Shown here: piece by piece, positions 19,539 to 35,631 of the stretch
Position numbering within the stretch: position 1 is the stretch's first letter
Layout of the letters: the number at the start of each line of letters is the position of its first letter
From: Paenibacillus graminis
GTDB lineage: Bacteria; Bacillota; Bacilli; Paenibacillales; Paenibacillaceae
Direction of reading: 5' to 3'
DNA length: 64,000 nt
Assembly: GCF_000758705.1 (NCBI RefSeq)
Contig: NZ_CP009287.1
Location: forward strand, 3,596,001 to 3,660,000
The notes under the pieces: generated by a model
Told to the model about the DNA's origin: nothing
Seen by the model: the letters and a program-made list of their open reading frames with translations, nothing else
Database searches by the model: none
Program-made: the position numbers and the translations under genes

Positions 19539-21194
19539 ATGTGGTCAACTATTGTATCCTATATCCCCGGATGGATCATATTTATGCAGGCTGCAATTAC
19601 TTTGCTCTGTCCGCTGGGAATTTATTTTATATACAAAAAACTGTATACATTCGTAAGCACGGCGGGACCCAAATTGAATAACAGCGTTCAACCCGTTGCT
19701 GAATCCACAGCGGACAGCCTGGTCAGCGGGCAGTACGAAGCGGATTTGTCGTATGTTCAGCAGGCAATTGGCGGGAACAGTGATGTGAATTTTCGTGAAT
19801 TTATGGTACAGGGGTATGAGCTCCGGGCTGTACTTGTCTTTGTTAACGGTATGCAGGATGAAGAATCGATCAACAAGCATGTCATGCATCAGCTTATGTT
19901 CGGAAACAGCGGGATGAAGGAGGAGGGGCAAGATTCCCGGGAAACCTTAACCCTGTCCGCCCTAAAAGCAAACCTGCTGCCGCTCACAGAGCTTGAGGAG
20001 GTTAAAGAGCTGGACAAGCTCCAGGAGCGGATTCTTTTCGGCTATACGGCATTACTGATTGAAGGGATATCCGCAGGACTTCTGGTTGGACATCCCAACG
20101 GGTCTATCCGTGCGATTACGGAACCGACTTCAGAGGCACTGCTTCGCGGACCAAGAATCGCTTTTTCGGAAGTGTTAAGTGAAAATACTTCTATGCTGCG
20201 CAGACAAGGCTTGAATAAGAACCTGGAAATGAAGGTATACGAGGTGGGCAGTCTTGTAAAACGCAAGCTGGTCATTGCGTATATGAAGGATATCGTCAAC
20301 CCCGATTTACTGGAGGAAGTCAAGACGAGAGTATCCAGGATCGATATGGATTTTATTGCCGAATCGGGTTATGTGGAACAATTGATAGAGGATAACGTTC
20401 TGAGCCCTTTCCAGCAAATACAAAATACCGAGCGGCCTGACCGGGTAATTAACGCCTTGCTTGAAGGCCGGGTTGCTCTGCTTCTGGAAGGGACACCATT
20501 TGCACTGATTGTGCCTGTGACCTTCAGTATGCTGCTTCAATCACCGGAGGATTACTTTGAGCGGTGGCTGCCTGGAACATTGCTGCGGCTGCTGAGATTT
20601 TTCGCTGCATTTATGGCGCTGATGGCACCGGCTTTGTATATTTCCTTTATCTCTTTTCATCCCGGATTGATTCCGACCGAGCTGGTGATCAGCATCATCG
20701 AGACCCGCCAGGGGGTGCCTTTTCCTTCTGTTATTGAAGTTCTGATTCTGGAAGTATCCATTGAAATCCTGCGCGAAGCGGGAATCCGGCTGCCCAAACC
20801 GATCGGACCTGCGATGGGCATTGTAGGCGGTCTGATTATTGGCGATGCCGCAGTAAATGCGGGACTCGTCAGCCCGTTTCTGGTCATTGTGGTAGCGGTC
20901 ACAGCGATTTCATCCTTTTCGATCCCTATGTACAGTGCCGGCATCACGCTCCGCATTTTAAGGTTTGTTGGCATGATGTTCGCAGCTCTTCTCGGCATGC
21001 TTGGCACTATTCTGTTTATTTTACTGATCTTTATCCATTTGACCAAGCTGAAGAGCTTTGGCGTGCCCTATGTCACCCCATTCTCCCCTCTGCGCTTGAG
21101 CGACTGGAAGGATCTCTATATTCGCGCACCGCTGCCCTTAATGAAGCGCAGACCTGAAATGATGAAGACTCAGAAGAAAAAACGCCGCACCTAG
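19539..21194 (+). CDS. Spore germinant receptor subunit A (GerA family)
   Basis: Membrane subunit of an endospore germinant receptor, 551 residues. The large hydrophilic N-terminal region (about 50-340) contains the GerA-type stretch AITEPTSEALLRGPRIAFSE and RKLVIAYMKDIVNPDLLEEVKTR. Several C-terminal membrane helices follow (about 350-530), including the family block EVSIEILREAGIRLPKPIGPAMGIVGGLIIGDAAV. An extra hydrophobic helix lies near residues 9-32. Ribosome binding site AAGGA is suitably spaced for ATG 19539 but touches ATG 19530. First gene of a complete A-B-C operon. It probably has a sigma-G promoter, but I could not identify one with confidence. Confidence 0.93.
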   Translation: MWSTIVSYIPGWIIFMQAAITLLCPLGIYFIYKKLYTFVSTAGPKLNNSVQPVAESTADSLVSGQYEADLSYVQQAIGGNSDVNFREFMVQGYELRAVLVFVNGMQDEESINKHVMHQLMFGNSGMKEEGQDSRETLTLSALKANLLPLTELEEVKELDKLQERILFGYTALLIEGISAGLLVGHPNGSIRAITEPTSEALLRGPRIAFSEVLSENTSMLRRQGLNKNLEMKVYEVGSLVKRKLVIAYMKDIVNPDLLEEVKTRVSRIDMDFIAESGYVEQLIEDNVLSPFQQIQNTERPDRVINALLEGRVALLLEGTPFALIVPVTFSMLLQSPEDYFERWLPGTLLRLLRFFAAFMALMAPALYISFISFHPGLIPTELVISIIETRQGVPFPSVIEVLILEVSIEILREAGIRLPKPIGPAMGIVGGLIIGDAAVNAGLVSPFLVIVVAVTAISSFSIPMYSAGITLRILRFVGMMFAALLGMLGTILFILLIFIHLTKLKSFGVPYVTPFSPLRLSDWKDLYIRAPLPLMKRRPEMMKTQKKKRRT

Positions 21195-21219
21195 CCGGAA
21201 AACAATAGGAGGAATAGAT

Positions 21220-22323
21220 GTGTTTGAACGCTCAGACCTAAAAATCACATCCACACAGGCTGCTATATTCTTGACAAACACAGTTCTCGGTGCCGGAATA
21301 TTGACGCTGCCCAGATCGGTTACCGAGACCGCCAAAACTCCGGATGCCTGGATTTCGGTTCTGCTGGGCGGCGGAATTATCATGCTGGTCATCGTGCTGA
21401 TGGTTAAGCTGAGTCAACAATTCCCCGGGCAAACGGTCTATCAATACTCCAGGCAAATTGCCGGCAGCATTCCAGGGAGCTTCCTTTCCGTGCTGCTGAT
21501 TGTCTACTTCATCATAATCGCAGGGTTTGAGATTCGGGTATTTGCCGAGATTACCATGTTTTTTTTACTTGAAGGTACTCCTATCTGGGCCATTGTCATC
21601 CCGTTTATCTGGGTGGGGGGATATCTGGTCTTCGGAGGGATTAATTCCATTGCCAGAGTGTATCAGATTATTTTTCCGGTCAGCATATTTGTACTTCTGC
21701 TGTGCTATCTCTTCAGTGGGAGACTGTTTGATATCAATCATTTGCGCCCGTTTCTAGGTGATGGAATTATGCCTGTCATCAGGGGTCTTAAATCGACAAT
21801 CCTGGTGTTTACCGGTTGTGAGGTTGTAATGACATTAACAGCATTTATGCAGCACCCTCAGCAAGCCGTCAAAGCTATGTTAGCCGGGATTGGAATTCCG
21901 CTGATCTTGTACTTGATTACTGTGGTTATGTCCATTGGCGGACTATCGATAGATTCAGTGATTACAAGCACATGGCCCACGATAGACCTGATCCGCAGCT
22001 TTGAAATTTCAGGCTTCTTTTTTGAACGTCTGGAATTCCCGCTGCTCGTCATTTGGATGATGCAGATGTTTTGCAATTTCTGCAGCTTCTTCTTCAACGC
22101 ATCACTGGGAATCTCCCAGTTGTTTAAACTAAAGATGGCTCCGATTATATTCGGATTGATGCCGCTCATTTTTTTGGCAACCATGATTCCTGTACGCATC
22201 AACGATGTATTTGCTCTTGGCGACGCAATCGGGAACATGGGAATTGTCTTGTTTGTCTTGCTTCCTGTTTTGCTGTCTCTGGTTCTTATCGTTAGGAGGA
22301 AGGGGTTGAAGCAGAATGTATAG
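21220..22323 (+). CDS. Spore germinant receptor subunit B (GerB family)
   Basis: Polytopic membrane protein of 367 residues related to the APC transporter superfamily, with about ten helices. The N-terminus has the expected ITSTQAAIFLTNTVLGAGILTLPRS. GerB subunits contain the germinant-binding site in characterised receptors. GTG start at 21220 with AGGAGG seven bases upstream. The stop overlaps the start of the C subunit. Confidence 0.93.
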   Translation: MFERSDLKITSTQAAIFLTNTVLGAGILTLPRSVTETAKTPDAWISVLLGGGIIMLVIVLMVKLSQQFPGQTVYQYSRQIAGSIPGSFLSVLLIVYFIIIAGFEIRVFAEITMFFLLEGTPIWAIVIPFIWVGGYLVFGGINSIARVYQIIFPVSIFVLLLCYLFSGRLFDINHLRPFLGDGIMPVIRGLKSTILVFTGCEVVMTLTAFMQHPQQAVKAMLAGIGIPLILYLITVVMSIGGLSIDSVITSTWPTIDLIRSFEISGFFFERLEFPLLVIWMMQMFCNFCSFFFNASLGISQLFKLKMAPIIFGLMPLIFLATMIPVRINDVFALGDAIGNMGIVLFVLLPVLLSLVLIVRRKGLKQNV

Positions 22324-23515
22324 ACGCAGATTATTCCCTGCCTTCCTGGCCACAGCACTCCTAATGACAGAGACCGGCTGCTGGAGCAGCAAGGAGATTG
22401 AAGATCTGAGCATGTACACGGCGCTAACTATGGACACAGGGCAACCAAGCAAGGTGGAGCAGACCTTTGAGAAAGAGGGAGGAAGCTACTTAAAAGACAA
22501 CAAAATTACAGTAACGATTGAGATTGTCCCGAAAAAGTCATATGGGAATTCCAATAAAACATCAGATACCGATGCCAAATCACCTAACTATGTCAATATT
22601 TCCGAAACAGGCGATTCAGTGCTGGAAATTTTGCGCCAGTTCGCCATTCGTCTGGATCACCCGGTGATTGGACATCACCTGAAGGTTATTGTGATTTCCA
22701 AGCAGCTGCTGAAGGAGCAGCGAATACAGAGTTTGATGGATTTTGTGCTTCGGGATAATGACATCCGCCCCAGCAGCTTAATATTAATGAGTGAAGGCCG
22801 GGCTGCGGATACGCTCAAAACGAAATATGGCGATGAGATACCGGCCTTTCACATTAGAGGCATGACGCGGAACCGTTTTAGAACCAACAGAATTATGAAG
22901 GGCATCGTTATCTCCGAACTGGATGCGCTGATGCATTCCAAAAAAAGCTTTGTCTTGCAAAATATCGTTGAAGCGAATCAGGAAGTGGAGTTCTCTGGCG
23001 GAGGGGTGATTAAGGGGGACACCGGCAAATGGGTTGGAAATCTGGATCAGGAGGATACTGAGAGTATTGCGTGGATAATGGGGGATGTAAAAGGAGGAAC
23101 GCTCAAAACCTACGATCCGGATCATCAGACCGTGACCTATGAGATTAAGTCGGCAAAAAGCAAAATATCGGCAAAAGTGAATAAGGATCATGAGCCGGAG
23201 TTTCACGTGAGTATTGAATCCGAGGGGCGGTTAATCGAAAAGTGGAAAAATCCGGGACAATCCTCTAAAAAAGAATATCTTGAAAAAATGCAGGGGATAT
23301 TCGAAGAAAGGCTCTCTGCCATGATTCAATCGCTTATGCAGAAGATGCAGTCGGAATACAAAGTAGAGGTAGCCGGATTCGGAGAACGGCTAAGTGTGGA
23401 AGAGCCGCAGGAATGGAAGAAGCTGAAGGATCATTGGGATGAAACCTTCAGCCGCACTCCAGTCACCTTTGATATTAAGCTTACAATTACAGATTTTGGC
23501 TCGTTTATTGAATAA
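22316..23515 (+). CDS. Spore germinant receptor lipoprotein subunit C (GerC family)
   Basis: Lipoprotein of 399 residues. Lipobox LMTETGC puts the acylated cysteine near residue 22, followed by WSSKEIEDLSMYTALTMD as in GerC proteins. It overlaps the B gene by eight bases, so the three subunits are translationally linked. The C-terminal third (EYLEKMQGIFEERLSAMIQSLMQKMQSEYKVEVAGFG) matches the helix-rich domain 3 of the family. The gene lies next to, but transcribed towards, the BtrH-like gene. Confidence 0.92.
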   Translation: MYRRRLFPAFLATALLMTETGCWSSKEIEDLSMYTALTMDTGQPSKVEQTFEKEGGSYLKDNKITVTIEIVPKKSYGNSNKTSDTDAKSPNYVNISETGDSVLEILRQFAIRLDHPVIGHHLKVIVISKQLLKEQRIQSLMDFVLRDNDIRPSSLILMSEGRAADTLKTKYGDEIPAFHIRGMTRNRFRTNRIMKGIVISELDALMHSKKSFVLQNIVEANQEVEFSGGGVIKGDTGKWVGNLDQEDTESIAWIMGDVKGGTLKTYDPDHQTVTYEIKSAKSKISAKVNKDHEPEFHVSIESEGRLIEKWKNPGQSSKKEYLEKMQGIFEERLSAMIQSLMQKMQSEYKVEVAGFGERLSVEEPQEWKKLKDHWDETFSRTPVTFDIKLTITDFGSFIE

Positions 23516-23530
23516 TGCAGTGAATAAAGC

Positions 23531-24517
23531 TTACTGGACCAATTCACTCTGCATCGTCAGATGTACCAGTTCATCCAGGAGCTGTTCTTCGAGGCTGATC
23601 ATTTCATGCATTTTTTTGTGAATCTTCCGCCGTTGGGATAGCTTATTGCCTGAACACATCACTTTGATCATGAATTGATTAATAAGATTCCACTGTTCTC
23701 CTGAATGCTGATAGCCCTCAGCAGCCCGGGAGAGTACGGGCAGGCAGGCCTCACGGTTAAGCAGACGCAGGAACAGGCTGAACCGGATCCGGTGGATTGG
23801 CAGGGTGTTGGCTGCCAGCATGAAGCTGGAACTGTATTCAGCGGGACAACCGGCAGTGATTCCCGCATTCAAATAGGCGTCGGCATAGGCCCTGAGGTGA
23901 GCGGCAACCTGGTTGGGCTGAACCCGATCTAAAGGGCTGGTCAGCATTCCTTGAAGTGTAGTCAGCCAGTCTGTATATGAACGCGAAGAATCGCAAAGCT
24001 CAAATAATGCATAGAAATGACAGGCTTGCTGGAATACATCGATATCCACAGCTTCAAGCTCTTTGCCATAGTAGGCATCCGTTAAATAAATTAGGTTGCT
24101 TGAACGGTCCAGTCCAACGGCAAGACAGGCATGGCTGGTATGCAGCTTGCGGAAGGCCAGGCACCAGGGGCAGTCATAAGAATCAAATCCGACCAGGACC
24201 GGCATTCCTGAAGACAACCGGCCCTCCAGCATGTCGAGCATGAAGTTCTTATCCATTTCCGGCTCCTTCCGTTCAATATAAGTGAACATAAGGCCATGGT
24301 ACGCAGACAGAGATTCTGTACTGATCCGCGGCAGGGCTAACCGCTCAATCAACGGCTGATCCGGAAACTGCTGTTCTTCAAAGGACACCTGCCAGGCATT
24401 TCCGTACATGCACTTGCTGTCCTTTCCCTGCCATTCGGCCACAGAATGAATGCAGTCATCGATACAGCTGCGGAGCGTGGGGTAGGAGGTACTCTTAACG
24501 GGAACAATGTTCAGCAC
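23531..24517 (-). CDS. BtrH-like protein (putative acyltransferase or papain-like fold)
   Basis: A 328-residue soluble protein. The central part contains GMPVLVGFDSYDCPWCLAF, SHACLAVGLDRSSNLIYLTDAYYG: a conserved-looking His, then an Asp in a strand, as in the BtrH N-terminal/C39-like peptidase fold, where butirosin BtrH transfers an acyl group from a carrier protein to an aminoglycoside. The C-terminal half is helical and not assigned. GTG start at 24517 with AAGGAG upstream; it overlaps the end of the AraC gene by 23 bases, so both form a minus-strand unit. Its neighbours (carrier protein, ATP-grasp) support the assignment, but family membership is from pattern only. Confidence 0.55.
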   Translation of the reverse strand: MLNIVPVKSTSYPTLRSCIDDCIHSVAEWQGKDSKCMYGNAWQVSFEEQQFPDQPLIERLALPRISTESLSAYHGLMFTYIERKEPEMDKNFMLDMLEGRLSSGMPVLVGFDSYDCPWCLAFRKLHTSHACLAVGLDRSSNLIYLTDAYYGKELEAVDIDVFQQACHFYALFELCDSSRSYTDWLTTLQGMLTSPLDRVQPNQVAAHLRAYADAYLNAGITAGCPAEYSSSFMLAANTLPIHRIRFSLFLRLLNREACLPVLSRAAEGYQHSGEQWNLINQFMIKVMCSGNKLSQRRKIHKKMHEMISLEEQLLDELVHLTMQSELVQ

Positions 24518-25415
24518 TGCTTATCATCTCCTTCGCCGACAAATAGTGACTATGAAACCGGTTTCGATAACAGGCAGGAGTCATACCGCTGTACTCGCGG
24601 AACAGCCGGTAGAAATATTTCATGTCGTAAATTCCGACCTCCAGCGCAATAGCCTGTATCCCAAGCTCCGTGAACATCAGCAGCATGCAGCTGTATTTCA
24701 TGCGGATTTCCTGGAGCATCTGGATGTAGGATCTGCCGGTCTTTATTTTGAATAATCTCTGAAACTGGCGGGAGCTCATCGCAATCTGGCGGCTAATCTC
24801 CTTCAGTGTGATTTTCTCGCTGAAATTACTGATCATATACAGAATAACGTCATGCAGCGGATCTTCGTCAACCCGGGGCTGTTGTGCGAAGGGGACAGAT
24901 GCAGCGGGCAGAATGAGGCCCGCGAGCTCGAACAGCAGCGGGTACAGCTGCAGCTGATCCTCAGCGGAACCATTATGATGTATCCCCTGCATACGGCGGA
25001 GTATCAAGGATAGCTCCATGTTTTTCTCCCTGTATCCGAACCATTGCTTCAACTCCAGAAGCGTCAGCAATGGAAACATATCCTCTTCAGAAAATTCTCC
25101 TGAAAGTTCGCGGGGAATTCTGCAAACCTCAGGCCTGAGCATACAATTGAGGATGATGAGCGGCTGGGAACCGGTCAGATCCTGCGGGTGAAAGACATGG
25201 GAAACCCCAGGCGGTATAACTAGCAAATCCCCCTGTACAACCTGGATTTTATCCTTAGCTGCCAGATGGATTCCTTCCCCCTGAACCACATAAGCGAGTT
25301 CCAAAAAATCGTGCTGATGACGTACGGAAGTGACTGTTTCCTGAGTCAGGAGCAATTGAACCGGTGAACAGGAGTCAAATAGATATTCCCCAGTGAATAC
25401 CGGAAAAACTTCCAT
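24495..25415 (-). CDS. AraC-family transcriptional regulator of the biosynthetic cluster
   Basis: A 306-residue regulator. N-terminal cupin-like sensor (HQHDFLELAYVVQGEGIHL, GDLLVIPPGVSHVFHP) at about 35-90, C-terminal pair of helix-turn-helix motifs (about 200-300) with ITLKEISRQIAMSSRQFQRLFK and YFYRLFREYSGMTPACYR. GGAGG (minus strand, at 25423-25427) selects ATG 25415; an upstream ATG at 25496 has none. It is divergent from the carrier-protein operon, with about 155 bases between starts, and overlaps the BtrH-like gene. It most likely controls both arms in response to a small ligand. Confidence 0.9.
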   Translation of the reverse strand: MEVFPVFTGEYLFDSCSPVQLLLTQETVTSVRHQHDFLELAYVVQGEGIHLAAKDKIQVVQGDLLVIPPGVSHVFHPQDLTGSQPLIILNCMLRPEVCRIPRELSGEFSEEDMFPLLTLLELKQWFGYREKNMELSLILRRMQGIHHNGSAEDQLQLYPLLFELAGLILPAASVPFAQQPRVDEDPLHDVILYMISNFSEKITLKEISRQIAMSSRQFQRLFKIKTGRSYIQMLQEIRMKYSCMLLMFTELGIQAIALEVGIYDMKYFYRLFREYSGMTPACYRNRFHSHYLSAKEMISSAEHCSR

Positions 25416-25571
25416 AGACAAGCCTCCGTTTCCTACTTCCTTATGATAGACACCTGGAATCCACCCTAGTATAGCTGAATATTTTGGCGCATTCAACCAT
25501 ATATTAACATTCGGGTTTTTGGTATATTCAGTTCATTCATTCCTACTATGCACACTGAAAGGGGTATACAC

Positions 25572-25814
25572 ATGCAGCAGAAAGTCATTGAGATTATCGC
25601 TGAAATCAAGGAGGATCCGGGCCTGCTTCAGACGCTGAACGGGGCTTCGGATCTGACTCTGGATGCCGCACTTGATTCGCTGCAAATCATCAATTTTATT
25701 CTGAGAATCGAAGACGAATTCGATATCGAAGTAGATTTCGATACCTTTGATCTGGAACATTTGAAATCGGTAGACCGTTTCTCCGCTTATGTCGCCGGGC
25801 TTGCCGTGCGATGA
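25572..25814 (+). CDS. Free-standing acyl carrier protein
   Basis: An 80-residue acidic carrier protein. The 4'-phosphopantetheine site is S36 in LDSLQIINFILRIEDEF, followed by FDIEVDFDTFDLEHLKSVDRFSAYV, as in discrete carrier proteins of specialised metabolism. DSLQ replaces the DSL(D/E) of fatty-acid carriers. GAAAGGGG sits before ATG 25572. The stop overlaps the ATP-grasp start by four bases, so both proteins are made together. No ketosynthase, adenylation domain or thioesterase is encoded nearby. The expected role is to carry an amino acid or peptide loaded by the ligase downstream, as BtrI does in butirosin synthesis. Confidence 0.88.
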   Translation: MQQKVIEIIAEIKEDPGLLQTLNGASDLTLDAALDSLQIINFILRIEDEFDIEVDFDTFDLEHLKSVDRFSAYVAGLAVR

Positions 25815-27151
25815 AGAACGCTGTGCACTGCGGCAGCCTGGAGTCGGAACGGTACTGGCGGGAGGAAGACCTGGCCACTTTGCCGTCCATTCCTGATGCG
25901 AGGGCTATGGCTATCGTTCAGGCCATGGATGAAATGCTGTTTGTCTTTTGCGGCAACGGGGATATTCTATTAACCCGTCATGGTATGGACAAAGCTCAAT
26001 ATGATTATCTGCAAACTCTCAAATATGCCTTCAAGACGAATATGAATCCATTAACATTGGGAGCCGGGGAACCTGGCACAATGCAGAACGCACTGAACGT
26101 ATTTGAATTGCTGGGCAGGCTCGACCCCGGACAGGAACCCGATAGGTTAATACCGGAAGGATCGCTGCTTGAACCTTTTGCCGTGCTTCCCGGGACGCAG
26201 GAGGCGGTTAGGCGCTATAAGCTTCTGCCCGGACTCCCGGATGAGCAGACCGTGCGCAAAGTGAACACCAAAACCTATTCTGCTGCCATGCGGGATAGGC
26301 TGTCGTTGCCGAATATCGCCCAGATCGTCCACAACGTGGAGGAGCTGCTGCAATCAGGACAGAAGCTGCTGGAGAGGGGGCCTTTTCTGATCAAGGATGA
26401 GTATGGTGTATCCGGCAAAGGAAATCAGCTTGTGGACTCTGAGCGCATGCTGCGCAGAATTGCCGGTTACCTGGAGTCCAGCCGAAACCAGGATAAAAGA
26501 GTCCTATTTGTGCTTGAACCCCTGCTGGACCGGGAGGCAGACTTCTCCTGTCAATTTCACATCGATCCAGAAGGCCGGATCTCGATATTGTCCGTTCAGC
26601 AGCTGGTGAACCATGGTTTTGCCTTCGGAGAGTCACATTCCCCGAAGCCGTCTCTGCTCGAAAGACTGGACCGGGAAGGCTATTGGGAAATCATGCACAA
26701 CATTGGACGGGAACTGTATGCCGATGGTTATTATGGCGATGTATGCGTGGATTCAATGCTGCTGCGTGACGGAAGCCTCGCACCGCTGGTGGAGATCAAT
26801 GCCCGCAAATCGATGAGTTTGATTAAGCATAATGTAGACCGCCGCCTCAAGCAGGAGGGGATGCATACCTGTCTAATCCAGGTACCGCTGGCGACCATGG
26901 GAGAGGTTCGTTATGGAGAGCTGCTGCAGCGGATGGAGGAGACCGGCATACTATTTTCAATGGAAGAGGGTGAAGGAGTGATTCCCTTGACTTCAGGCAC
27001 ACTCCAGCCAGCGGACCCGTCCCGCTCCTCCGGTTCCTCCAAGGGTAAGCTGTATGCAGCACTCGCCTACCGGAATGAAGACCGCAAAAACAAGCTCACC
27101 GGCAAGCTGGACGAATCGCTTCTGCGCACTGGCTATACTATACTGCGTTAA
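25811..27151 (+). CDS. ATP-grasp ligase, probably loading the carrier protein (BtrJ-like)
   Basis: A 446-residue ATP-grasp protein. VNTKTYSAAMRDRL, GPFLIKDEYGVSGKGNQLV (ATP-binding lysine and glycine-rich loop near 195-213), VLFVLEPLLDREADFSCQF and GDVCVDSMLLRDGSLAPLVEINARKSM (metal-binding Glu/Asn near 320-342) form the fold in order. Butirosin BtrJ, of similar layout, ligates glutamate to the carrier BtrI and to its gamma-amino group. The tight coupling with a carrier gene makes carrier aminoacylation the best guess. The substrate amino acid is not known. The C-terminal 90 residues are not assigned. Confidence 0.8.
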   Translation: MKNAVHCGSLESERYWREEDLATLPSIPDARAMAIVQAMDEMLFVFCGNGDILLTRHGMDKAQYDYLQTLKYAFKTNMNPLTLGAGEPGTMQNALNVFELLGRLDPGQEPDRLIPEGSLLEPFAVLPGTQEAVRRYKLLPGLPDEQTVRKVNTKTYSAAMRDRLSLPNIAQIVHNVEELLQSGQKLLERGPFLIKDEYGVSGKGNQLVDSERMLRRIAGYLESSRNQDKRVLFVLEPLLDREADFSCQFHIDPEGRISILSVQQLVNHGFAFGESHSPKPSLLERLDREGYWEIMHNIGRELYADGYYGDVCVDSMLLRDGSLAPLVEINARKSMSLIKHNVDRRLKQEGMHTCLIQVPLATMGEVRYGELLQRMEETGILFSMEEGEGVIPLTSGTLQPADPSRSSGSSKGKLYAALAYRNEDRKNKLTGKLDESLLRTGYTILR

Positions 27152-27167
27152 TGAAAGGAACCCTCCA

Positions 27168-28289
27168 ATGAATAATACTGTGACTATTCTATGTTCTGGG
27201 TTTGGTCTGGGCTTCTATGTCCCCGGCCTGCTGATTGAAGCAAAACTCAAGGCGCTTGGCATCAAGGCAGAGATTGAGGTTTTTGAAACATTAATGCCTG
27301 ACAGCAAAAAAAAGCAGACGGACAACAGCCGCCAAGCGTACCAGAAGAATTTTGCCGTAGCCCTGACCTCACAAAAAATACCTTCGGATATCCGCAGCAG
27401 CCTTGATTCAGCAGCCGTTGAACAATTATTTCAGCAATGGAAGCAGGAAGAAAGACAGCGCTTCATTATTTTATCCGGGCATTGGGTGCATATTATGGAC
27501 AGATACCGTGAAACTGCCGGTTTTCCTGTGTATGCCGACCTGCTCTATATTGATGCCGGTCTTTCGCCGTCATGGAAGAATCTCCTCAGGCTGAATCCCG
27601 GTTACGCGGAAGGCTGCCGTGAAGTAAGCATGTATGATCCCGGGAAGCGGGAGATACTCTGCAGTATAGATGCCGGTCCTATGGAAGCGCTGCCGTATCG
27701 TGCTAGGAACGGGAGATTGGTTATTCATGGCGGCGGCTGGGGAATCGGAACCTTCCGCGAGAAGTTCGATGCACTGGAGTCGGCAGGATATGAGCTGGAT
27801 ATCGCTGCTTACAGTTCTCAGGAGATTGGAGGGGCCATTCATGGAAGACGTTATTATATGAACGACCCGGAGTGGCGGACCTGGCTGCGTGACAGCAGCG
27901 GACGGTATACCTTCCCGCCTTTTGCAGAGGTAACCGGTAAACAGGCAGACCACTTTCCGCCTTGCCGTCACTACCAGGAGGGGATGTTTGGGGTCATCCG
28001 GCAGGCATCTGCTGTAATCAGCAAGCCGGGAGGAGGGGCCTTGATTGATTCATTGGCTTCAGGCACTCCGCTGGTGCTGCTGGACCCTTTTGGCCCACAT
28101 GAGAAGATCAACAGCGATCTGTGGGTAGAGCTTGGTTACGGTATCCGTTACGGGGAGTGGGCCGAGACAGGCTTTGACCGGGAGGAATTGCGCAAGCTGT
28201 CGGACAACCTCCAGGCAGCCAGAGCCCGATATCCAGATTATGCCGCAAGTTATGCGGAACAATTATCCGCAGCAGAAGGGAGAAGCTAA
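27168..28289 (+). CDS. GT-B fold glycosyltransferase-like protein
   Basis: A 373-residue protein with MurG/UGT-like architecture. The N-terminus (TVTILCSGFGLGFYVPGLLIEAKLKALG) is a Rossmann-like start. The C-terminal half has RLVIHGGGWGIGTF and the nucleotide-sugar binding block AVISKPGGGALIDSLASGTPLVLLDPFGPHEKINSDLWVELGYG (about 280-325). The acceptor is unknown. AAAGGAACC before ATG 27168; the longer frame from 27054 only overlaps the ATP-grasp gene. The stop shares one base with the radical SAM start. Within the cluster it may glycosylate the carrier-bound or released product. Confidence 0.75.
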   Translation: MNNTVTILCSGFGLGFYVPGLLIEAKLKALGIKAEIEVFETLMPDSKKKQTDNSRQAYQKNFAVALTSQKIPSDIRSSLDSAAVEQLFQQWKQEERQRFIILSGHWVHIMDRYRETAGFPVYADLLYIDAGLSPSWKNLLRLNPGYAEGCREVSMYDPGKREILCSIDAGPMEALPYRARNGRLVIHGGGWGIGTFREKFDALESAGYELDIAAYSSQEIGGAIHGRRYYMNDPEWRTWLRDSSGRYTFPPFAEVTGKQADHFPPCRHYQEGMFGVIRQASAVISKPGGGALIDSLASGTPLVLLDPFGPHEKINSDLWVELGYGIRYGEWAETGFDREELRKLSDNLQAARARYPDYAASYAEQLSAAEGRS

Positions 28290-29482
28290 TGCAGCCTACC
28301 AGCAGAGTGAACCTGGATGCCAAATCCTTTGAGGCTTTGAAACGCACGATCAAGAATGTTGTGGTTCCCCACAGAGAACGCAAACATGATCCCGGTTTCA
28401 AAACCGTTATGCCGGAAATTATGTCACTGAAGCTGACCAACCGCTGTAATCTCCGCTGCAAGCATTGCTACCAATGGAATGAATCCGGCTATCATCATGA
28501 TATGGACACCGCCGAGCAGAATCTGGATATGGATTTGGAGATGATCCAGAGGCTTTTGGAGGAAACGGATGAAGCACAGTCCCGTCTGTATTTATGGGGA
28601 GGCGAACCGCTCTTTCACCGGAGTACCAAGCAAATCCTGGAACTGCTGAAAGAGCATCCCCGGGATACAACGATCTGTACCAATGCTTATCTGATTCATA
28701 AGTATGAAGAAGAGCTGTGTGCGATCTCGGACAATCTGGAGCTGCTGATTCCGATAGAGGGGTTCGAGGAGGAGCATGATTATCTGCGCGGCAAAGGATC
28801 GTTTCACAAAGTGATCGAGAACGTCGAACGGCTGCTTGAACTGCGCAGGCAAGGCCGCTTCCGCGGCCGGATCTCTGTGCATAATGTGATTAATGATAAT
28901 ATGATCGGCAGATTGTATGAGCTGGTGGAATTTTTTGAGCAAAAGGGGGTTGATCTGGTGCTGCTCTGCTTCCCCTGGTATATTTCTGCAGAAACCAGCC
29001 TGGAAATGGACCGCTTCTACGATGAACACTTCCAGTGGCTGGGGGAGCTTGCGCCGGATCACCGGAGCAGCTGGCATGCTTTCAAGTATCATATTAAGCC
29101 AGACAACGTCACCAAGCTAACCGAGGATCTGAAACGGATCAACAGCAACACTTGGCATAATACAAGAATCCGTTACCAGCCGGGGCTTGACTTTGATGAA
29201 ATCGAAGATTTTGTGGCCGGCAAGCCGATGGCCTCCCGCAGTACGTCGAAATGTCTGGCGCTCAGCACCAGAGTTGATATTGCCCCGAACGGCATGGTGA
29301 GTGCTTGCAAATTTTTTGGCGAGCTGTCCATTGGCAATGTAAATGAGCAGTCCCTGACGGAAATATGGAACTCAGACCGCTATGACCGGCTGCGGCGGAT
29401 TCTGGATGAAGGCTTGTCGCCAGCTTGTTCCAAATGCAATGTGCTGTACTTGAATACCTATGCTGCGCTGACACATGTATGA
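28289..29482 (+). CDS. Radical SAM enzyme with SPASM domain
   Basis: A 397-residue enzyme with the [4Fe-4S] motif C53-x3-C57-x2-C60 in LTNRCNLRCKHCY, a GGEP motif (LWGGEPLFH), and a C-terminal cysteine-rich SPASM-type region (CLALSTRVDIAPNGMVSACKFF ending ACSKCNVLYL) that should bind auxiliary clusters. SPASM enzymes modify peptides (for example sactipeptides, PQQ) or small molecules; BtrN of butirosin synthesis is a small SPASM/Twitch dehydrogenase. No precursor peptide was found nearby, so a carrier-bound or sugar substrate is likelier. Start and stop overlap both neighbours (ATG 28289; ATGA at the end). Confidence 0.88.
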   Translation: MQPTSRVNLDAKSFEALKRTIKNVVVPHRERKHDPGFKTVMPEIMSLKLTNRCNLRCKHCYQWNESGYHHDMDTAEQNLDMDLEMIQRLLEETDEAQSRLYLWGGEPLFHRSTKQILELLKEHPRDTTICTNAYLIHKYEEELCAISDNLELLIPIEGFEEEHDYLRGKGSFHKVIENVERLLELRRQGRFRGRISVHNVINDNMIGRLYELVEFFEQKGVDLVLLCFPWYISAETSLEMDRFYDEHFQWLGELAPDHRSSWHAFKYHIKPDNVTKLTEDLKRINSNTWHNTRIRYQPGLDFDEIEDFVAGKPMASRSTSKCLALSTRVDIAPNGMVSACKFFGELSIGNVNEQSLTEIWNSDRYDRLRRILDEGLSPACSKCNVLYLNTYAALTHV

Positions 29483-30507
29483 AGAACGGCTGTGGACAAC
29501 CTGCCTATAGACTCGGTATCCTGGGTTCCTCGAACATTGCTGTATCAGCTTTACTGGAGCCTGCTCGGTATGTAGAGAAGGTGAGTATAGCCGCAATCGC
29601 AAACCGGACCTTTGAAAAAGCGGCAAAAATGGCGGAAACTTACCAGATTCCTTATGTGGCGGGCAGTCTGGAGGAGTTGCTGGAGCTAAACGGTCTGGAT
29701 GGCGTATATATTGCACTCAGCAATGAGCTTCATACAGAATGGGCGGTCCGGGCCTTGCATGCAGGTAAGCATGTATTGGCAGAGAAGCCGATTGCCTTGA
29801 AGACTGAAGATGCTGAACGGTTACGGATGGCTAAAGAAAGACCCGGCTCCCCGAAGCTCGCCGAAGGTCTGATGATAGCATTTCATCCCTGGCAGCAGGC
29901 ATTGAAATCTATTGTTGATTCCGGACAATTTGGTCAGCTGCATAGAATCAGGACACGGATTACCGTACCTGCCAAAGACAGGCATGCCGGAAATTACCGC
30001 AGTGTCAAAGCTAAGGGCGGAGGTGTTTTTGCCGATCTGGGCTGCTACTGGCTGCAGTTCCTGCAGGTCCTGGTGGGTCTTCAGCCCAGGGAGGTTACGG
30101 CACAGTCAGCGTTTGACGGGCCGGAAGGCTGCGACTGGACCTTTCAGGCAGCGCTAAAATATGCGGATGGACTGGAAGCCGAATGTCTCACTTCCTTTGA
30201 GCAGCCATTCCAGGCTTCGCATACCCTGTATTTTGATCATACCGTGCTGACGATCCCGGATTTCTTCCGTCCGGTCAAAGGGTTCTACAAAATCAAAATA
30301 CGGCATGACCTTCCGGATAACCGCAGCACCCTATGCGAATTCGAGCCGATGAATTATTATGTGAACCAGCTTGGAGCATTTGCGGAGATCATGAGCGGGC
30401 AAAGGGCGGAGCAGCTGGAAGCCACATGGGAACGGGTGCAAATGCAATCCATCATTATGGACGAAGCGCAACTGCGAAGGGTCTATTATGAGGCAAATCG
30501 TCAATAG
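29479..30507 (+). CDS. Gfo/Idh/MocA-family NAD(P)-dependent oxidoreductase
   Basis: A 342-residue oxidoreductase. Rossmann start RLGILGSSNIAV near residue 10, then the family EKP motif in GKHVLAEKPIAL (about 95-106), and a C-terminal substrate domain. Such enzymes oxidise or reduce sugars, inositols or cyclitols, or amino-sugar intermediates. ATG 29479 overlaps the radical SAM stop (ATGA); the longer frame from 29425 lies inside that gene. Last gene of the operon, followed by a strong terminator. A sugar or cyclitol dehydrogenase next to a glycosyltransferase-like gene suggests a sugar-containing product. Confidence 0.88.
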   Translation: MKNGCGQPAYRLGILGSSNIAVSALLEPARYVEKVSIAAIANRTFEKAAKMAETYQIPYVAGSLEELLELNGLDGVYIALSNELHTEWAVRALHAGKHVLAEKPIALKTEDAERLRMAKERPGSPKLAEGLMIAFHPWQQALKSIVDSGQFGQLHRIRTRITVPAKDRHAGNYRSVKAKGGGVFADLGCYWLQFLQVLVGLQPREVTAQSAFDGPEGCDWTFQAALKYADGLEAECLTSFEQPFQASHTLYFDHTVLTIPDFFRPVKGFYKIKIRHDLPDNRSTLCEFEPMNYYVNQLGAFAEIMSGQRAEQLEATWERVQMQSIIMDEAQLRRVYYEANRQ

Positions 30508-30510
30508 CCC

Positions 30511-30552
30511 AAAAAACAGCGATTCCCAGTCACCGGGGAGTCGCTGTTTTTT
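30511..30552 (+). terminator. Terminator of the carrier-protein operon
   Basis: AAAAAACAGCGA and TCGCTGTTTTTT enclose a smaller inner hairpin. T run on the plus strand, and a matching A run that would work for the minus strand too. Confidence 0.88.
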
Positions 30553-30774
30553 ACCTAATAGGGCAGGAGTCATTCAGACATCCGGGTTCGGTTGTGGTTT
30601 CGGTATTTTCACCTGACACAGTCTCGATCTTGGACCATGCTTGATTCTACACCTTTTTAAATAAAGAGTGATCCTGGGCACCAGATACGGAATACGTTCA
30701 TTAAATAGAAAATACGGCATTCCTCGTACACCGGCAAGGCGGGTATCTTTTTGATATTAATACATCAATACGAC

Positions 30775-30820
30775 TTGACATGTGAATAAATTATCGATAT
30801 AGTGTGAATGAGTTCACACT
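30775..30820 (+). promoter_or_regulatory. Sigma-A promoter with TetR operator overlapping the -10
   Basis: TTGACA (30775-30780), 17-base spacer, TATAGT (30798-30803). A perfect inverted repeat AGTGTGAA-TGAG-TTCACACT (30801-30820) begins inside the -10 box. The first gene downstream is a TetR regulator, so autorepression is the natural reading. Confidence 0.82.
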
Positions 30821-30839
30821 TTACATGAAGGAGTAATCT

Positions 30840-31499
30840 ATGCCAAAAAATACTTTCTTTCGTTTAGATGAAGCAAGGCGCGAGGAAATATCTAATAGCG
30901 CTATGCATCTTTTTGTTGATAATCTTTACGAGGATATAACTATGAAGATGGTTTTGGATAGTTTGTCCATGCACCCCGGAACATTTTATCGGTATTTTGA
31001 AGACAAAGATGACCTTTATTGTCTCTTAATACATAATGTGACCCAGAAAAGAGCTGCGTATTTTAATAACAGTAATGAAGATTCCCTTTTCCGGTTTTTC
31101 CTTACTGGCTTATTTGGTAACGTTAACGGCATTGTAACCGAGCCGCTGAATGAGTTGGAAATCAAACTCACTGAAACACTTTTATACATTCCTGAGAACA
31201 TTTTGCTTAAAATATATCTGAATGTGCTAAAGGGAGAGTCATTCCCCTTGATCAAGGACATTTTACGCCGAATGAGGGTTGATGGATATCTTAGGCCTGA
31301 TATTGACGACGACCTGATTTCTTTCATGTTTGAGTCCATGCAGTTTAATTTAGTCCTGTTTTTTAGGGAATTCGATATTAAGGACTCTAAGCTGCAACAT
31401 AAGATTAGCAAGTACTTTGCTGACTTTATGGGTCATGGGCTGCTTGAAGATCATAAATATTCTGAAATGGTTAGCGATATCAGGAAAGCCAAGGAGTAG
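30840..31499 (+). CDS. TetR-family transcriptional regulator
   Basis: A 219-residue regulator. The N-terminal helix-turn-helix (about 10-56) includes NSAMHLFVDNLYEDITMKMVLDSLSMHPGTFYRYFEDKDDLY. The C-terminal ligand domain is helical and family-unspecific. GAAGGAG precedes ATG 30840. It is preceded by a perfect palindrome at its own promoter and followed, 112 bases on, by a hydrolase gene it may also control. Base composition is more AT-rich than in the preceding cluster. Confidence 0.9.
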   Translation: MPKNTFFRLDEARREEISNSAMHLFVDNLYEDITMKMVLDSLSMHPGTFYRYFEDKDDLYCLLIHNVTQKRAAYFNNSNEDSLFRFFLTGLFGNVNGIVTEPLNELEIKLTETLLYIPENILLKIYLNVLKGESFPLIKDILRRMRVDGYLRPDIDDDLISFMFESMQFNLVLFFREFDIKDSKLQHKISKYFADFMGHGLLEDHKYSEMVSDIRKAKE

Positions 31500-31611
31500 A
31501 TAGGATTCACTGAAAATAGGCTGTAATAGCTTCACAGTTTTGAAAAGCGCTCATAGCACAATGTATGTATTTCACATTCGCCACTTTTATTAATTAAGGG
31601 GGAACAAGAAA

Positions 31612-32757
31612 ATGAAAACGTATGACGCATTTCCAGAACCAATTGGCGGCTATACTGTCGGTCGAACCCAGATGGATTTCGAGTACACGGCATCAGATCA
31701 CTCAAAAAGAGAGCTGACGGCGTTTGTGTACTATCCGTCCGACAGCAGCGAAGGTAAGACTACATCAACGTACATGTTTCCTGAAGTCTACGAAATGTTT
31801 AATGAGCAGCCGCTTATCACTGCGTATCATAAAGAGAAGGATGTTTTCTCTATAGATATCAAGACCCAGTGTTACGATGGCCTTGCTCTCTCCGGGAAGG
31901 AAAAGCGCTATCCGGTGTTATTCTATGTTTGCGGCGGGGGCGGTTCTCCAGAATGGGGTACAGTGATCTGTACAGACTTGGCAAGCATGGGATATGTTGT
32001 GGTAAGCATCGGCCATCAGAATAGCACGATGTATAAGCGTAAAGATGGGCGCCTGTTTAATGTATCAAAGGATTTTTCGGAGGCCATTATGGCGTTTTCT
32101 GAAGATCCGGAGATGCTGGCGTTGGCTGGTAAGATGGAGATGCGGCCTGACGATGAAACTGCTATTGAGATGTGCCGTAACGTGCTTGCACTGCCGGTAC
32201 TTGCCAAGTTAACAGAGTATGGTGAATTACAGGCAGAAGATGTAAGGTATGTAGCCGATTATCTTTACAAACTGGACTCTGGAGAGCTGGATTCCATCTT
32301 TAAGGGCAGATTGTTGCTTGACATCGGCATGGGCATAGTCGGACATTCTTTTGGAGGGCCTACGACGGCGATTGTTTGCCGGGACGACGACCGGTTCGCC
32401 TGCGGGATTGGCTTGGATAGCGGTGCGTTCGGCCTTCAGGGCAGCGACCTTAAGAAACCCTTCTTGCTGCTGTTTTGTGAACCTAACTATAACATGAATG
32501 CGATAATTGGCGCTAACAATAGCATGGAAACCTATTATTTCTCTGTTGATCGTGTTGCGCATTTAGATTACTGCGACATCGTGTTTACCGGTGTTAATGA
32601 GGAACTCAGAGGCGAACGGGATGCTATGGAGATGCGAAATCTTGTTACAGACTATACGAAGAACTTTTTTGATCATTACTTACTGCAGAAGGCTGCAAGT
32701 GTGGAAAGTCTGGCATACGATGGCGTGGACTTGATCAAGAAGACCGGCAAGAAGTGA
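31612..32757 (+). CDS. Alpha/beta hydrolase, PAF-acetylhydrolase/dienelactone type
   Basis: A 381-residue hydrolase. YPVLFYVCGGGGSPEWGTVICTDLASMGYVVVSIGHQ is the oxyanion-hole strand region, GHSFGG (about residue 246) holds the nucleophile serine, and LDSGAFG follows as in PAF-AH-like lipases. A His in VDRVAHLDYCDIVF is a candidate for the triad. There is no signal peptide. GGGGGAACAAG precedes the ATG. Located behind the TetR gene; no substrate can be inferred. Confidence 0.8.
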   Translation: MKTYDAFPEPIGGYTVGRTQMDFEYTASDHSKRELTAFVYYPSDSSEGKTTSTYMFPEVYEMFNEQPLITAYHKEKDVFSIDIKTQCYDGLALSGKEKRYPVLFYVCGGGGSPEWGTVICTDLASMGYVVVSIGHQNSTMYKRKDGRLFNVSKDFSEAIMAFSEDPEMLALAGKMEMRPDDETAIEMCRNVLALPVLAKLTEYGELQAEDVRYVADYLYKLDSGELDSIFKGRLLLDIGMGIVGHSFGGPTTAIVCRDDDRFACGIGLDSGAFGLQGSDLKKPFLLLFCEPNYNMNAIIGANNSMETYYFSVDRVAHLDYCDIVFTGVNEELRGERDAMEMRNLVTDYTKNFFDHYLLQKAASVESLAYDGVDLIKKTGKK

Positions 32758-33103
32758 CATAACCGTGAGGTTGCTGATAAACGCATCGCTACCTGATTGC
32801 TGTCAGCCGAAATATTATGAAAATTTCTGTTCGAATAAGAGAAGGAACAGTCTCGGCGTCCCTTATTATGGGGAAATTAGGTTCTTACCTAGCCAAAACA
32901 GCTAGGAAAGCCATGAATGGACTGGCAAGAGCTATTTTCTCAGGAGAACAAGGAGAGCTTAGGGAACGAACCATACAGCATCAGCTTCAAAGAGCTAGTG
33001 CTTTAAAAATATAATTATAAATGCCATCCGTATCTGGACGGATTCCAATGGCAGGTTGACTGTCACATCTGCAGAAAATTCACTTATGGGGCAGCCCTGT
33101 ATT
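32758..33103. other. Gap without a convincing gene
   Basis: Only a 65-codon open frame (32817-33014, plus) lies here. It has no ribosome binding site and no recognisable family. At 33022-33053 an interrupted stem (TGCCAT / ATGGCA outside, ATCCGT / ACGGAT inside) could act as a weak terminator for the minus-strand gene that ends at 33104. Confidence 0.5.
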
Positions 33104-33892
33104 TTAACGGTCCTGCAATGAAGGAGGCTGTTCTGCCCAGGATCGCTCATTGTTTAGCACATAAATTCCCAGCGCCTGCTCGAAGGAAAGGCCGTGATTG
33201 TAAAAAGCGAGTATCTTCGCAGCAAAGCGCATACACTTATCTGCACCGGGAGTCTGCAGCAGCTCAGCAGCCAGCCTCCGGAAGTCCTTCGGCTTATGTT
33301 CCGCAGCATCCACGGCATCCAGCAGCGCCTTGTGGCTTGGGAAAAGCATCCGGTTATACGCCAGGATCATCCTCCCGCTGTAGAACACCAGATTGCTGGC
33401 GGTGTGAGCAAGCAGATAGGCGTCATTCTTTTTGGCTGCCTCTTTGGCAAAATAGAAAGCGTACAGGAAGATCTGCGCACAAAAATCCCGCAGATTGCGA
33501 TCCCGGTTCTCTTCAGGATAGACGGGAATCCGGGCGACCAGCTCACCCAGCTCCGGGATTCTGGAGAACAAAACCTCCGAACCGGTAAAAGCATACCTCG
33601 TCGGTTCATTGCCCCGCTCGGCTGCAAGCTCCAGAAACCGGAGGTTGATGACTTTTATATCGGCGTATCCGCCTTCATATGTGCTGACATCACGGTCCAC
33701 ATAGGACAGAGTGTTGTTCCGGTTATATTCTTCATAGGCCTCATCCGTTAACAGGAGATGAACATCTACATCGGAGGTTTCCTTCGCGGTTCCCTGGGCT
33801 ACCGAACCACTGGTGATTACCGCCAGACAGGAAGGGTTCATTTCAAGCTTCCCCACCAGTTTTTTCAGAGTTTGTTTGTGATGGTCAAACAT
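33104..33892 (-). CDS. Nucleotidyltransferase-domain protein (Pol-beta fold)
   Basis: A 262-residue protein. The nucleotidyltransferase signature is SGSVAQGTAKETSDVDVHLLL near residues 28-48 (G-S followed by D-x-D), with a further acidic residue expected at GYADIKVINLRF. The helical C-terminus resembles aminoglycoside-adenylyltransferase-like proteins and minimal nucleotidyltransferases. Whether it modifies an antibiotic or a nucleic acid is open. GAGAGGATG upstream of ATG 33892. Single gene. Confidence 0.82.
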   Translation of the reverse strand: MFDHHKQTLKKLVGKLEMNPSCLAVITSGSVAQGTAKETSDVDVHLLLTDEAYEEYNRNNTLSYVDRDVSTYEGGYADIKVINLRFLELAAERGNEPTRYAFTGSEVLFSRIPELGELVARIPVYPEENRDRNLRDFCAQIFLYAFYFAKEAAKKNDAYLLAHTASNLVFYSGRMILAYNRMLFPSHKALLDAVDAAEHKPKDFRRLAAELLQTPGADKCMRFAAKILAFYNHGLSFEQALGIYVLNNERSWAEQPPSLQDR

Positions 33893-34128
33893 CTTTTACA
33901 TCCTCTCTTTATGGACTCTTATCCCTTAGCGTACCGGTTGAACCGTGCATCGGCTATGGTCAATTCAGACATATCCGGCAGAATGGATGATTGACAAAAG
34001 GTTTATATGAATATATTGTAGATATATTATATCCGTGATTGAATTCGCCTTTCTATTATCCGGCAAACCTATGGTTGATAGGGAATAGCGAATTTTTTTG
34101 AAATTATCGAGGATATTAGGAGTCTTTG

Positions 34129-35550
34129 ATGTATTTTATTAGATGCAGAGATAGGGTGGGATGTGGAATGAAAAGTAAACCTGGACTATTAGTTTCATCA
34201 CTCGTAATCGCGAATTTTCTGGCACAGCTGATGCAGACGATGCTGAATACCGCGCTGCCGCGCATCATGCAGGATTTGGGAATCGACGAGAGCAGGGCGC
34301 AGTGGCTGGTCACTATTTATTTTCTGGTTGCAGGCATTACAGTGCCTGTTGCCGGGTTTTTGGTCGGAAGGTTCACTACAAGGGCATTATTTTTTACTTC
34401 TGCAGGCTCATTTGCTGCAGGAACACTGCTTGCCGCAATGTCGCCTGATTTTGGACTGATCCTCGCTGGACGGATGATACAGGGGATAGGGGCAGGCCTG
34501 CTGATGCCGCTTTTTCAAACTACGGTGCTTAGAGTTTTTCCCAAAGAGAGGATCGGTTCTGCCATGGGGCTGATCGGTCTGGTAATGGGGCTTGCTCCGG
34601 CTCTGGGGCCGACCCTGTCCGGTTTGGTTGTTCAGGAGCATTCCTGGCGGATTCTGTTTTACGCTTTGCTTCCCATCGTGGCTGCCAATTTACTGCTGGC
34701 TTCTTTCAGCCTGAAGAACGTCGGGGAACCCCATCAGGCGAAGCTGGATCTGCGGTCCATCCTTTATTCAACCGTTGGCTTTGCCGGCCTGATGTATGGA
34801 GTAAACCGGGCAGGAGAGCAGGGAAATTCACGGCTGATTACGTGGGCTTTCATCCTAGGGGGAATTATCATCATTGTCCTGTTTATCCACCGCCAACTTA
34901 AGCTGACGGTGCCGCTGCTGGATTTCAACTTATTCCGCAACCGGAGATTCACCCAGTCTACCATCATTGGGGTGCTTATGTTTATTGTCATGGCCGGTGT
35001 GGAGCTGCTGCTTCCGCTTTATGCCCAGAATGTCCGTGGACTGACTCCCAGAATGTCCGGTATGATGCTGCTGCCGGGGGCTGTCCTCTTGGGTGTGACC
35101 AGTATGATCTCCGGCAGGCTCTATGACCGGTATGGCATAAAGCTGATTATCCGGGGAGGCTTTTCCCTCATTTCTGTCATTACACTGCTTCTGACCCTTC
35201 TGTTGTCGGCAAATGCTTCGATGATTCTATTGGCTATTGTTTATGCGCTCCTTATGGTTGGCATCGGGTTCATCATGACACCGGTCACCGCTTTTGCCAT
35301 GGCAAGCGTGCCCGTCCCGATGATTGCCCATGCCTCACCGATGACCATTACTATACGTTCCCTAAGCAGTTCAATGGGCGGAGTTATGCTGATTTCCATC
35401 ATGGCTGCTTCAATGAACCATGCTTCAGTCCATTTTCCGGGGAATATTCTCCAGGGACTGCTCAACTCATTCTGGACATTGACCGGGATCGCAGCCATCG
35501 GGCTATACATTTCCTTTATTCTGAAAGAGCGTAAGGCAGGCCATTCATAA
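34129..35550 (+). CDS. MFS multidrug efflux transporter, DHA2/EmrB type
   Basis: A 473-residue membrane protein. Motif NTALPRIMQDLGIDESRAQWLVTIYFLVAGI is typical of the first helices of drug:H+ antiporter family 2, followed by GRFTTRALFF and GRMIQGIGAGLLMPLFQTTVLR (motif C region). About 13-14 membrane helices are predicted. TAGGAG at 34117 fits ATG 34129; a second possible start at 34168 gives a shorter N-terminus. Substrate is unknown. Single gene. Confidence 0.9.
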   Translation: MYFIRCRDRVGCGMKSKPGLLVSSLVIANFLAQLMQTMLNTALPRIMQDLGIDESRAQWLVTIYFLVAGITVPVAGFLVGRFTTRALFFTSAGSFAAGTLLAAMSPDFGLILAGRMIQGIGAGLLMPLFQTTVLRVFPKERIGSAMGLIGLVMGLAPALGPTLSGLVVQEHSWRILFYALLPIVAANLLLASFSLKNVGEPHQAKLDLRSILYSTVGFAGLMYGVNRAGEQGNSRLITWAFILGGIIIIVLFIHRQLKLTVPLLDFNLFRNRRFTQSTIIGVLMFIVMAGVELLLPLYAQNVRGLTPRMSGMMLLPGAVLLGVTSMISGRLYDRYGIKLIIRGGFSLISVITLLLTLLLSANASMILLAIVYALLMVGIGFIMTPVTAFAMASVPVPMIAHASPMTITIRSLSSSMGGVMLISIMAASMNHASVHFPGNILQGLLNSFWTLTGIAAIGLYISFILKERKAGHS

Positions 35551-35631
35551 TAACTATACAAATCTGTGTGGATGAACAAGAACAACTCCCACATCCATTT
35601 TTTGAATGTGGGAATTGTTTACATGCAATTA

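Follow-up and report, generated by a model that had tools for sequence, protein, structure and literature searches.

A compact carrier-protein, ATP-grasp, glycosyltransferase and radical SAM gene unit in Paenibacillus graminis belongs to a widespread family and may direct assembly of a sugar-bearing metabolite without a nonribosomal peptide synthetase

The closest described systems are those for butirosin and closthioamide. Butirosin is an amino-acyl aminoglycoside whose BtrI, BtrJ, BtrK, BtrO, BtrV, BtrH and BtrG proteins include a discrete carrier, the glutamate-loading ATP-grasp enzyme BtrJ, the pyridoxal phosphate (PLP) decarboxylase BtrK and the luciferase-like monooxygenase BtrO, and whose pathway also uses the radical SAM enzyme BtrN. 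For BtrN, PMC9012708 describes an auxiliary cluster with four cysteine ligands and oxidation of an alcohol of 2-deoxy-scyllo-inosamine. For closthioamide, a case of non-canonical thiotemplated peptide synthesis, PMC6772006 describes assembly free of nonribosomal peptide synthetases (NRPSs) that is predicted to involve an ATP-grasp enzyme, an acyl-CoA-synthetase-type loader and free-standing carriers. Here, we analyzed a unit of seven genes in a 64,000-nucleotide stretch of the Paenibacillus graminis genome (the window; contig NZ_CP009287.1, positions 3,596,001 to 3,660,000). The unit resembles the butirosin system in having a discrete carrier beside an ATP-grasp enzyme, a BtrH-like protein and a twitch radical SAM enzyme whose four C-terminal cysteines correspond to those of BtrN. 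It differs in that its ATP-grasp enzyme is of another clade, it has no BtrK/BtrO-type gene, its BtrH match is below cut-off, and it adds a GT-B glycosyltransferase (GT) and a Gfo/Idh/MocA oxidoreductase. Compared with the closthioamide set (CtaD, an ATP-grasp enzyme; CtaE/CtaH, carriers; CtaI; CtaG), likened here by its published description, it shares NRPS-free character, an ATP-grasp enzyme and free-standing carriers, and differs in that a GT, a twitch radical SAM enzyme and an oxidoreductase would provide tailoring. Our proposal, in which our confidence is evenly balanced, is that the unit encodes a compact NRPS-free pathway in which a small secondary metabolite, bearing a sugar and probably an amino group, is built on a discrete carrier.

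The original prediction described seven genes in two divergent units, and all seven are intact. It overlooked an eighth linked gene, a nucleotidyltransferase at 33104–33892. The features are as follows.

23531–24517, minus strand: BtrH-like (papain/C39-like) protein, proposed acyltransferase (Pfam BtrH_N 18.9 bits, cut-off 29.7)
24495–25415, minus strand: AraC-family regulator (Pfam HTH_18 66.7 bits)
25572–25814, plus strand: discrete acyl/peptidyl carrier protein, 80 residues (Pfam PP-binding 28.5 bits, cut-off 20.8)
25811–27151, plus strand: ATP-grasp ligase, proposed carrier loader (related to PDB 8ynd)
27168–28289, plus strand: putative GT-B glycosyltransferase, GT1/GT28-like (GT-B fold of the predicted model)
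28289–29482, plus strand: radical SAM enzyme with a twitch auxiliary site (Pfam Radical_SAM, SPASM)
29479–30507, plus strand: Gfo/Idh/MocA oxidoreductase (Pfam GFO_IDH_MocA 66.5 bits)
30511–30552, plus strand: intrinsic terminator-like hairpin followed by a U run (−26.3 kcal/mol, z −7.7)
33104–33892, minus strand: nucleotidyltransferase with an ANT(4')/kanamycin nucleotidyltransferase fold, proposed self-protection (predicted fold and linkage)

As had been claimed, starts and stops overlap at most joints, namely at the BtrH-like/AraC joint and at all plus-strand joints (carrier/ATP-grasp, ATGA; GT-B/radical SAM, TAATG; radical SAM/oxidoreductase, ATGA) but the fourth, where a gap of 16 bases lies between the ATP-grasp and GT-B genes. 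Some starts are assigned as likely. The AraC open reading frame (ORF) reaches 25496 from a TTG, and its likely start is the ATG at 25415, which agrees with the shorter orthologues; the carrier ORF from 25548 has 88 residues, and its likely start, 25572, is preceded by AAAGGGG; 27168 for GT-B and 29479 for the oxidoreductase are also likely. From its position, AraC is the likely local regulator. None of 200 shuffles was as stable as the operon-end hairpin, and a promoter scan gave no excess over shuffles. Since the ratio of nonsynonymous to synonymous substitution rates (dN/dS), computed against three orthologous loci, is 0.05–0.25 for all seven genes and the nucleotidyltransferase (0.18–0.25 for the BtrH-like gene), the seven-gene unit is more than a chance assembly.

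The gene set turned out not to be unique, and is the compact form of a widespread family. Scanning species-representative genomes with the GT alignment returned 208 loci, of which 80 were examined, 78 of them longer than 12 kb; counts of core content in these loci use all ORFs. Found by GT alone, the 78 longer loci contain the core acyl carrier protein (ACP) in 72 cases, an ATP-grasp enzyme of either type in 74, a radical SAM enzyme of the core family in 71, a Gfo/Idh/MocA oxidoreductase in 50, a BtrH-like protein in 53 (profile search), an ABC exporter ATPase of one family in 50 and a PLP decarboxylase in 20. Hosts of the core include Paenibacillus, Cohnella, Clostridium, Lachnospiraceae, Streptomyces, Umezawaea, Mycolicibacterium, Pedobacter, a Chamaesiphon cyanobacterium and a Chitinispirillaceae bacterium. 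All four core proteins (GT, radical SAM, ATP-grasp and ACP) are present at the thresholds used in 66 of the 80 loci, the other 14 being left out, and with the window these give the 67 sequences in which invariance was counted. Mirror-tree comparison of the four proteins over the 66 loci gave rho values of 0.58–0.74, reached by 0 of 500 permutations each, correlations in which co-evolution and species descent are not separated. The claim that the set has no known counterpart held for the open PMC literature, the scope of our search, with subscription papers and cluster collections such as MIBiG lying outside it.

Five further clusters, from Cohnella, Gorillibacterium and Ruminiclostridium (L104, L110, L117, L121 and L140), have the core GT without the core radical SAM enzyme. 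They contain an AMP-ligase, a carrier, a BtrH-like protein, an ABC exporter, a PLP decarboxylase and a BtrJ-side ATP-grasp enzyme, and resemble closthioamide-type assembly; L117 also carries a PF14907 nucleotidyltransferase.

The gene content argues that the carrier and the adjacent ATP-grasp enzyme are a likely loading pair, as had been predicted. The Ser of the carrier DSL motif is invariant in 67/67 core carriers, as are K195, D314, E328 and N330 in the ATP-grasp enzymes (67/67). Neither the ATP-grasp enzyme nor the GT-B protein matches a Pfam family over cut-off, and the sole match of the ATP-grasp profile in the PDB is 8ynd, named "ATP-grasp peptide ligase." Of the 72 loci with a core ACP, 56 have an ATP-grasp gene no more than 200 bases from it, one (L144) has an AMP-ligase there and 15 have neither. 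The unit combines a discrete carrier bearing the phosphopantetheine Ser with an ATP-grasp enzyme and no NRPS, which fits non-canonical thiotemplated systems, where the loader may be an ATP-grasp enzyme or an AMP-ligase. In L144, the AMP-ligase occupies the loader place, the ACP, GT and radical SAM enzyme are kept, and a condensation–adenylation–thiolation–thioesterase module follows; the NRPS in L157 has two condensation (C)-domain stretches, with its first adenylation domain only from residue 463. In L144 and, to judge from the domain positions, in L157, a condensation domain stands first in the downstream NRPS, and both loci seem to need an upstream acyl donor.

A butirosin-type side chain, with the ATP-grasp enzyme acting as BtrJ to load glutamate and an amino-acyl aminoglycoside as product, would account for the shared parts list (carrier, ATP-grasp, BtrH-like protein and twitch radical SAM enzyme). 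Searching 392 genomes of the order with a BtrN fragment found loci in five, two of them 95–96% identical over 84 residues and with a carrier, an ATP-grasp enzyme and a decarboxylase nearby (profile search). The window ATP-grasp enzyme is a distant homologue of BtrJ from four BtrN-type loci (23–28% local identity over 217–332 residues, E values of 2.7e-15 to 1.9e-11 in a small set). In a 93-sequence tree, however, it falls in a 68-row clade with 67 core loaders, opposite a 25-row clade in which BtrJ groups with ATP-grasp copies neighboring a decarboxylase. Support for the split in the Shimodaira–Hasegawa-like approximate likelihood-ratio test (SH-aLRT) is 100. The program flags the branches separating the clades as long, and the division itself is more dependable than any exact placement. 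The core-clade type of ATP-grasp enzyme occurs in 67 of all 80 loci. BtrJ orthology is therefore rejected, which corrects the parallel with BtrJ drawn in the original prediction. Both ATP-grasp types stand side by side in 14 of 80 loci (e.g., L107, L126, L135 and L137), the BtrJ-side enzyme being a separate second copy. No BtrK-type PLP decarboxylase or BtrO-type monooxygenase was found among the 13 Pfam-scanned window genes in 23531–37863, nor among the three ger genes upstream. The window is the core without a butirosin-like side-chain module, and we regard the butirosin-type explanation as very improbable.

The radical SAM enzyme had been called a SPASM protein. The Pfam SPASM model does match, but with only four auxiliary cysteines it is a twitch enzyme, and a full SPASM domain with two auxiliary clusters is ruled out. 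Its CxxxCxxC motif, four auxiliary cysteines and C130 are invariant (67/67), and C322, C340, C380 and C383 align with the C-terminal cysteines of BtrN. By this cysteine set it is a BtrN-type twitch enzyme that, by analogy, would oxidize an alcohol. The non-cluster cysteine C130, a candidate hydrogen donor, is Pro in 31 of 33 members of a second radical SAM family, whose 33 copies in L089–L158 stand beside the core enzyme and have the same four auxiliary cysteines plus two further conserved ones. In the oxidoreductase, E120-K121-P122, D204 and Y208 (numbering of the 360-residue ORF) are conserved in at least 95% of 51 sequences.

For the GT-B protein, the predicted model (predicted local distance difference test score, pLDDT, 88.5) shows a two-Rossmann GT-B fold that spans the whole chain, as in antibiotic GT1 and MurG-type GT28 enzymes, and matches antibiotic glycosyltransferases and MurG. 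This favors the predicted nucleotide-sugar-transferase fold. Unlike those enzymes, it lacks a Pfam match and has its own conserved motifs, GHW and HGGGWGxGT. Sugar supply bears on a reading in which a uronic acid glycoside comes first, its sugar carboxylate being loaded by the ATP-grasp enzyme, with the radical SAM enzyme and oxidoreductase acting on the tethered ring. The GT is named UDP-glucuronosyltransferase in source databases (automatic names), and the nearest larger relatives, L089–L091, add to the same core a methyltransferase, a second radical SAM enzyme and genes for a sugar nucleotidyl transferase, an epimerase and UDP-glucose 6-dehydrogenase. These sugar genes are missing from the compact unit, though, the dehydrogenase occurs in only 12/80 loci, and the AMP-ligase in the loader place of L144 fits an amino or hydroxy acid equally well. 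We consider this order of events improbable; as genes for sugar supply, those of the larger relatives also count in favor of the main proposal.

The BtrH-like protein is present as predicted, but its Pfam match stays below cut-off. Residues C18, H126, H129, D137 and D147 are invariant in 17 BtrH-like sequences. The best E value against BtrH proteins is 0.008, a weak similarity, and hhalign gave a probability of 88.7 to one BtrH-like set and of 21.4 and 7.1 (two directions) to the set with a Pfam-passing representative. Among the 80 GT-found loci, a BtrH-like protein occurs in 58 and a C domain or KASIII-like protein in 11, with none having both.

In close relatives, the compact unit is kept as a block. 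Within the 295 genomes searched, own genome included, an ATP-grasp homologue occurs in 112 and one at least 71% identical in 22; wide stretches were taken for 16 of the 21 others in the latter group (L039–L054), plus 24 more distant loci, with genes called by a crude longest-ORF caller. The divergent AraC/BtrH-like pair and the series from ACP to oxidoreductase are kept in 16/16 loci, and most flanking genes vary. The caller missed the ATP-grasp gene of L052, which homology search finds there without stops. The radical SAM enzyme of L040 may be broken, since it is called as two ORFs of 134 and 295 residues. The compact form also occurs in ten named loci (L079–L088), including P. jilunlii, P. 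helianthi, P. tritici, P. oralis and P. macerans, and the nearest named ATP-grasp enzyme among loci in the tree is from P. jilunlii (89%). Since L039–L054 and L079–L091 overlap, several contigs being common to both, counts from the two sets are not independent. An RNase J-like gene (41014–42687) has copies at 82% identity or more, near full length, in 37 genomes (one partial match, G023, left out), and since 14 of these have the cluster and 23 do not, the presence of the cluster is patchy. As a species-tree proxy, this gene is a poor clock, with eight further cluster genomes lacking such a copy.

The linked nucleotidyltransferase is kept in 15 of the 16 orthologous loci, the best of eight flanking genes, the next being a GerAC-like gene (4/16). 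It occurs at three positions in L079–L091 (downstream on the minus strand, upstream on the minus strand, and inside the plus operon in L089). Its co-occurrence with the cluster may partly reflect shared descent. The predicted fold, a nucleotidyltransferase core with a C-terminal helical domain as in 1kny/6p01, has ANT(4') as its best full-length match. It differs from ANT(4')/kanamycin nucleotidyltransferase in its ~12% identity, in scores far below the curated ANT cut-offs and in its place beside a biosynthetic cluster; a PDB sequence search gave no match. Three other loci have APH-like genes. As an in-operon gene of the window, the nucleotidyltransferase is ruled out by terminator and strand. 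In one genome, a second copy of it, more similar (87%), lies far from the cluster at G038:C1:7969675-7970460.

What we observe is gene content, conservation, the folds of two proteins, invariant residues and linkage. We infer the substrates, step order, BtrH-like transfer and self-protection as follows. A phosphopantetheinyl transferase encoded elsewhere (the host genome, a single 7.17 Mb contig, has two matches) would arm the carrier at Ser36 (80-residue form), and the ATP-grasp enzyme would activate and load a carboxylic acid that is probably an amino acid. Judging by its fold, GT-B would attach a sugar drawn from a nucleotide-sugar donor. Like BtrN, the twitch radical SAM enzyme may oxidize a C-OH; the ketone may then be reduced or oxidized further by the Gfo/Idh/MocA enzyme, or the two enzymes may together invert a center. 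Off-loading would fall to the BtrH-like protein, which would pass the carrier-bound acyl group to an amine acceptor. Lastly, fold and linkage suggest that the nucleotidyltransferase adenylylates the product in the producer, in which case the product would be aminoglycoside-like, a plausible outcome. Taken together, the evidence, as read from sequence, supports assembly that is templated by a carrier and free of NRPSs, akin to that of the butirosin side chain and of closthioamide, with transfer of a sugar and an oxidation of the BtrN kind.

Several observations weigh against this pathway. For off-loading, the BtrH similarity of the 23531–24517 protein appears weak, and four loci fetched through ATP-grasp (L071, L073, L075 and L076) hold both kinds of off-loader, so strict exclusivity failed. 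Because of these four, and because the eleven C-domain/KASIII-like loci are mostly phylogenetically distant, exchange of off-loaders is a suggestion only. For loading, L146 and L151 have the core ACP, GT and radical SAM enzyme with a BtrJ-side ATP-grasp enzyme only, so the pairing of core and loader type is not absolute, and the second clusters of P. tritici and P. silagei (L127 and L132) have no ATP-grasp gene in the locus and an AMP-ligase instead, a possible natural loader loss or swap; these two also contain the core carrier, GT, two radical SAM enzymes and an ABC exporter. For self-protection, the best NCBIfam match of the nucleotidyltransferase is the MntA antitoxin family (23.6, cut-off 60), followed by ANT(4')-II (15.8, cut-off 350), the gene lies outside the operon with the terminator and two other genes between, and in P. 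tritici (G050, L046/L082) it is on another contig. Finally, among the genes scanned, the compact unit lacks an exporter, a deacetylase and any recognized gene for amino sugars or cyclitols.

The nucleotidyltransferase might accordingly be an unrelated neighbor, antitoxin-like or acting on another metabolite, and uninformative about the product. We think this unlikely, if the least unlikely of the alternatives, given that it is the sole one retained of eight flanking genes tested, that it recurs at three positions and that its best full-length fold match is ANT(4').

The missing exporter would also fit a glycosylated cell-surface, spore or storage compound that the producer retains and does not secrete as a bioactive molecule. 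Directly upstream lies a gerA-type spore germinant receptor operon (19530–23515; Pfam GerA, Spore_permease and GerAC), and a GerAC-like gene is near the unit in 4/16 orthologous loci; the ger operon is not generally kept beside it. The MFS gene at 34126–35550 was considered as an exporter and rejected: since a close copy (94%) is found in the P. jilunlii locus alone (L039, the same contig as L079), with 32% matches in L087 and L088, it is not a conserved neighbor. Against retention, 50/78 relatives carry the ABC exporter ATPase and others have MFS or MATE exporters (L149 and L143), and the genes of the ANT-fold and APH-like kinds suggest that the product is bioactive; a retained compound seems to us improbable.

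The carrier-assembled metabolite favored here may represent an undescribed, widespread class of carrier-templated glycosides, in which a GT and a twitch radical SAM enzyme would act on a tethered acyl group, with exchangeable loaders (two ATP-grasp types and AMP-ligase) and several off-loaders (BtrH-like, C domain and KASIII-like), and in which the compact Paenibacillus product would be aminoglycoside-like with its own ANT(4')-fold protection. In this full form the proposal is tentative, and we would not expect all its parts to hold. The core recurs over several phyla, with a product not found in the open PMC literature, and P. graminis has it in a very reduced version, comprising two units with seven genes in all and one linked gene, which is small enough to be cloned whole. 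If sugar transfer and radical chemistry do take place on the carrier, this would be a tailoring strategy for which we know of no precedent. Should the product prove to be modified by the ANT(4')-fold enzyme, the family would offer aminoglycoside-like compounds that arise outside 2-deoxystreptamine pathways, and the genomes of producers may harbor environmental relatives of clinical modifying enzymes.

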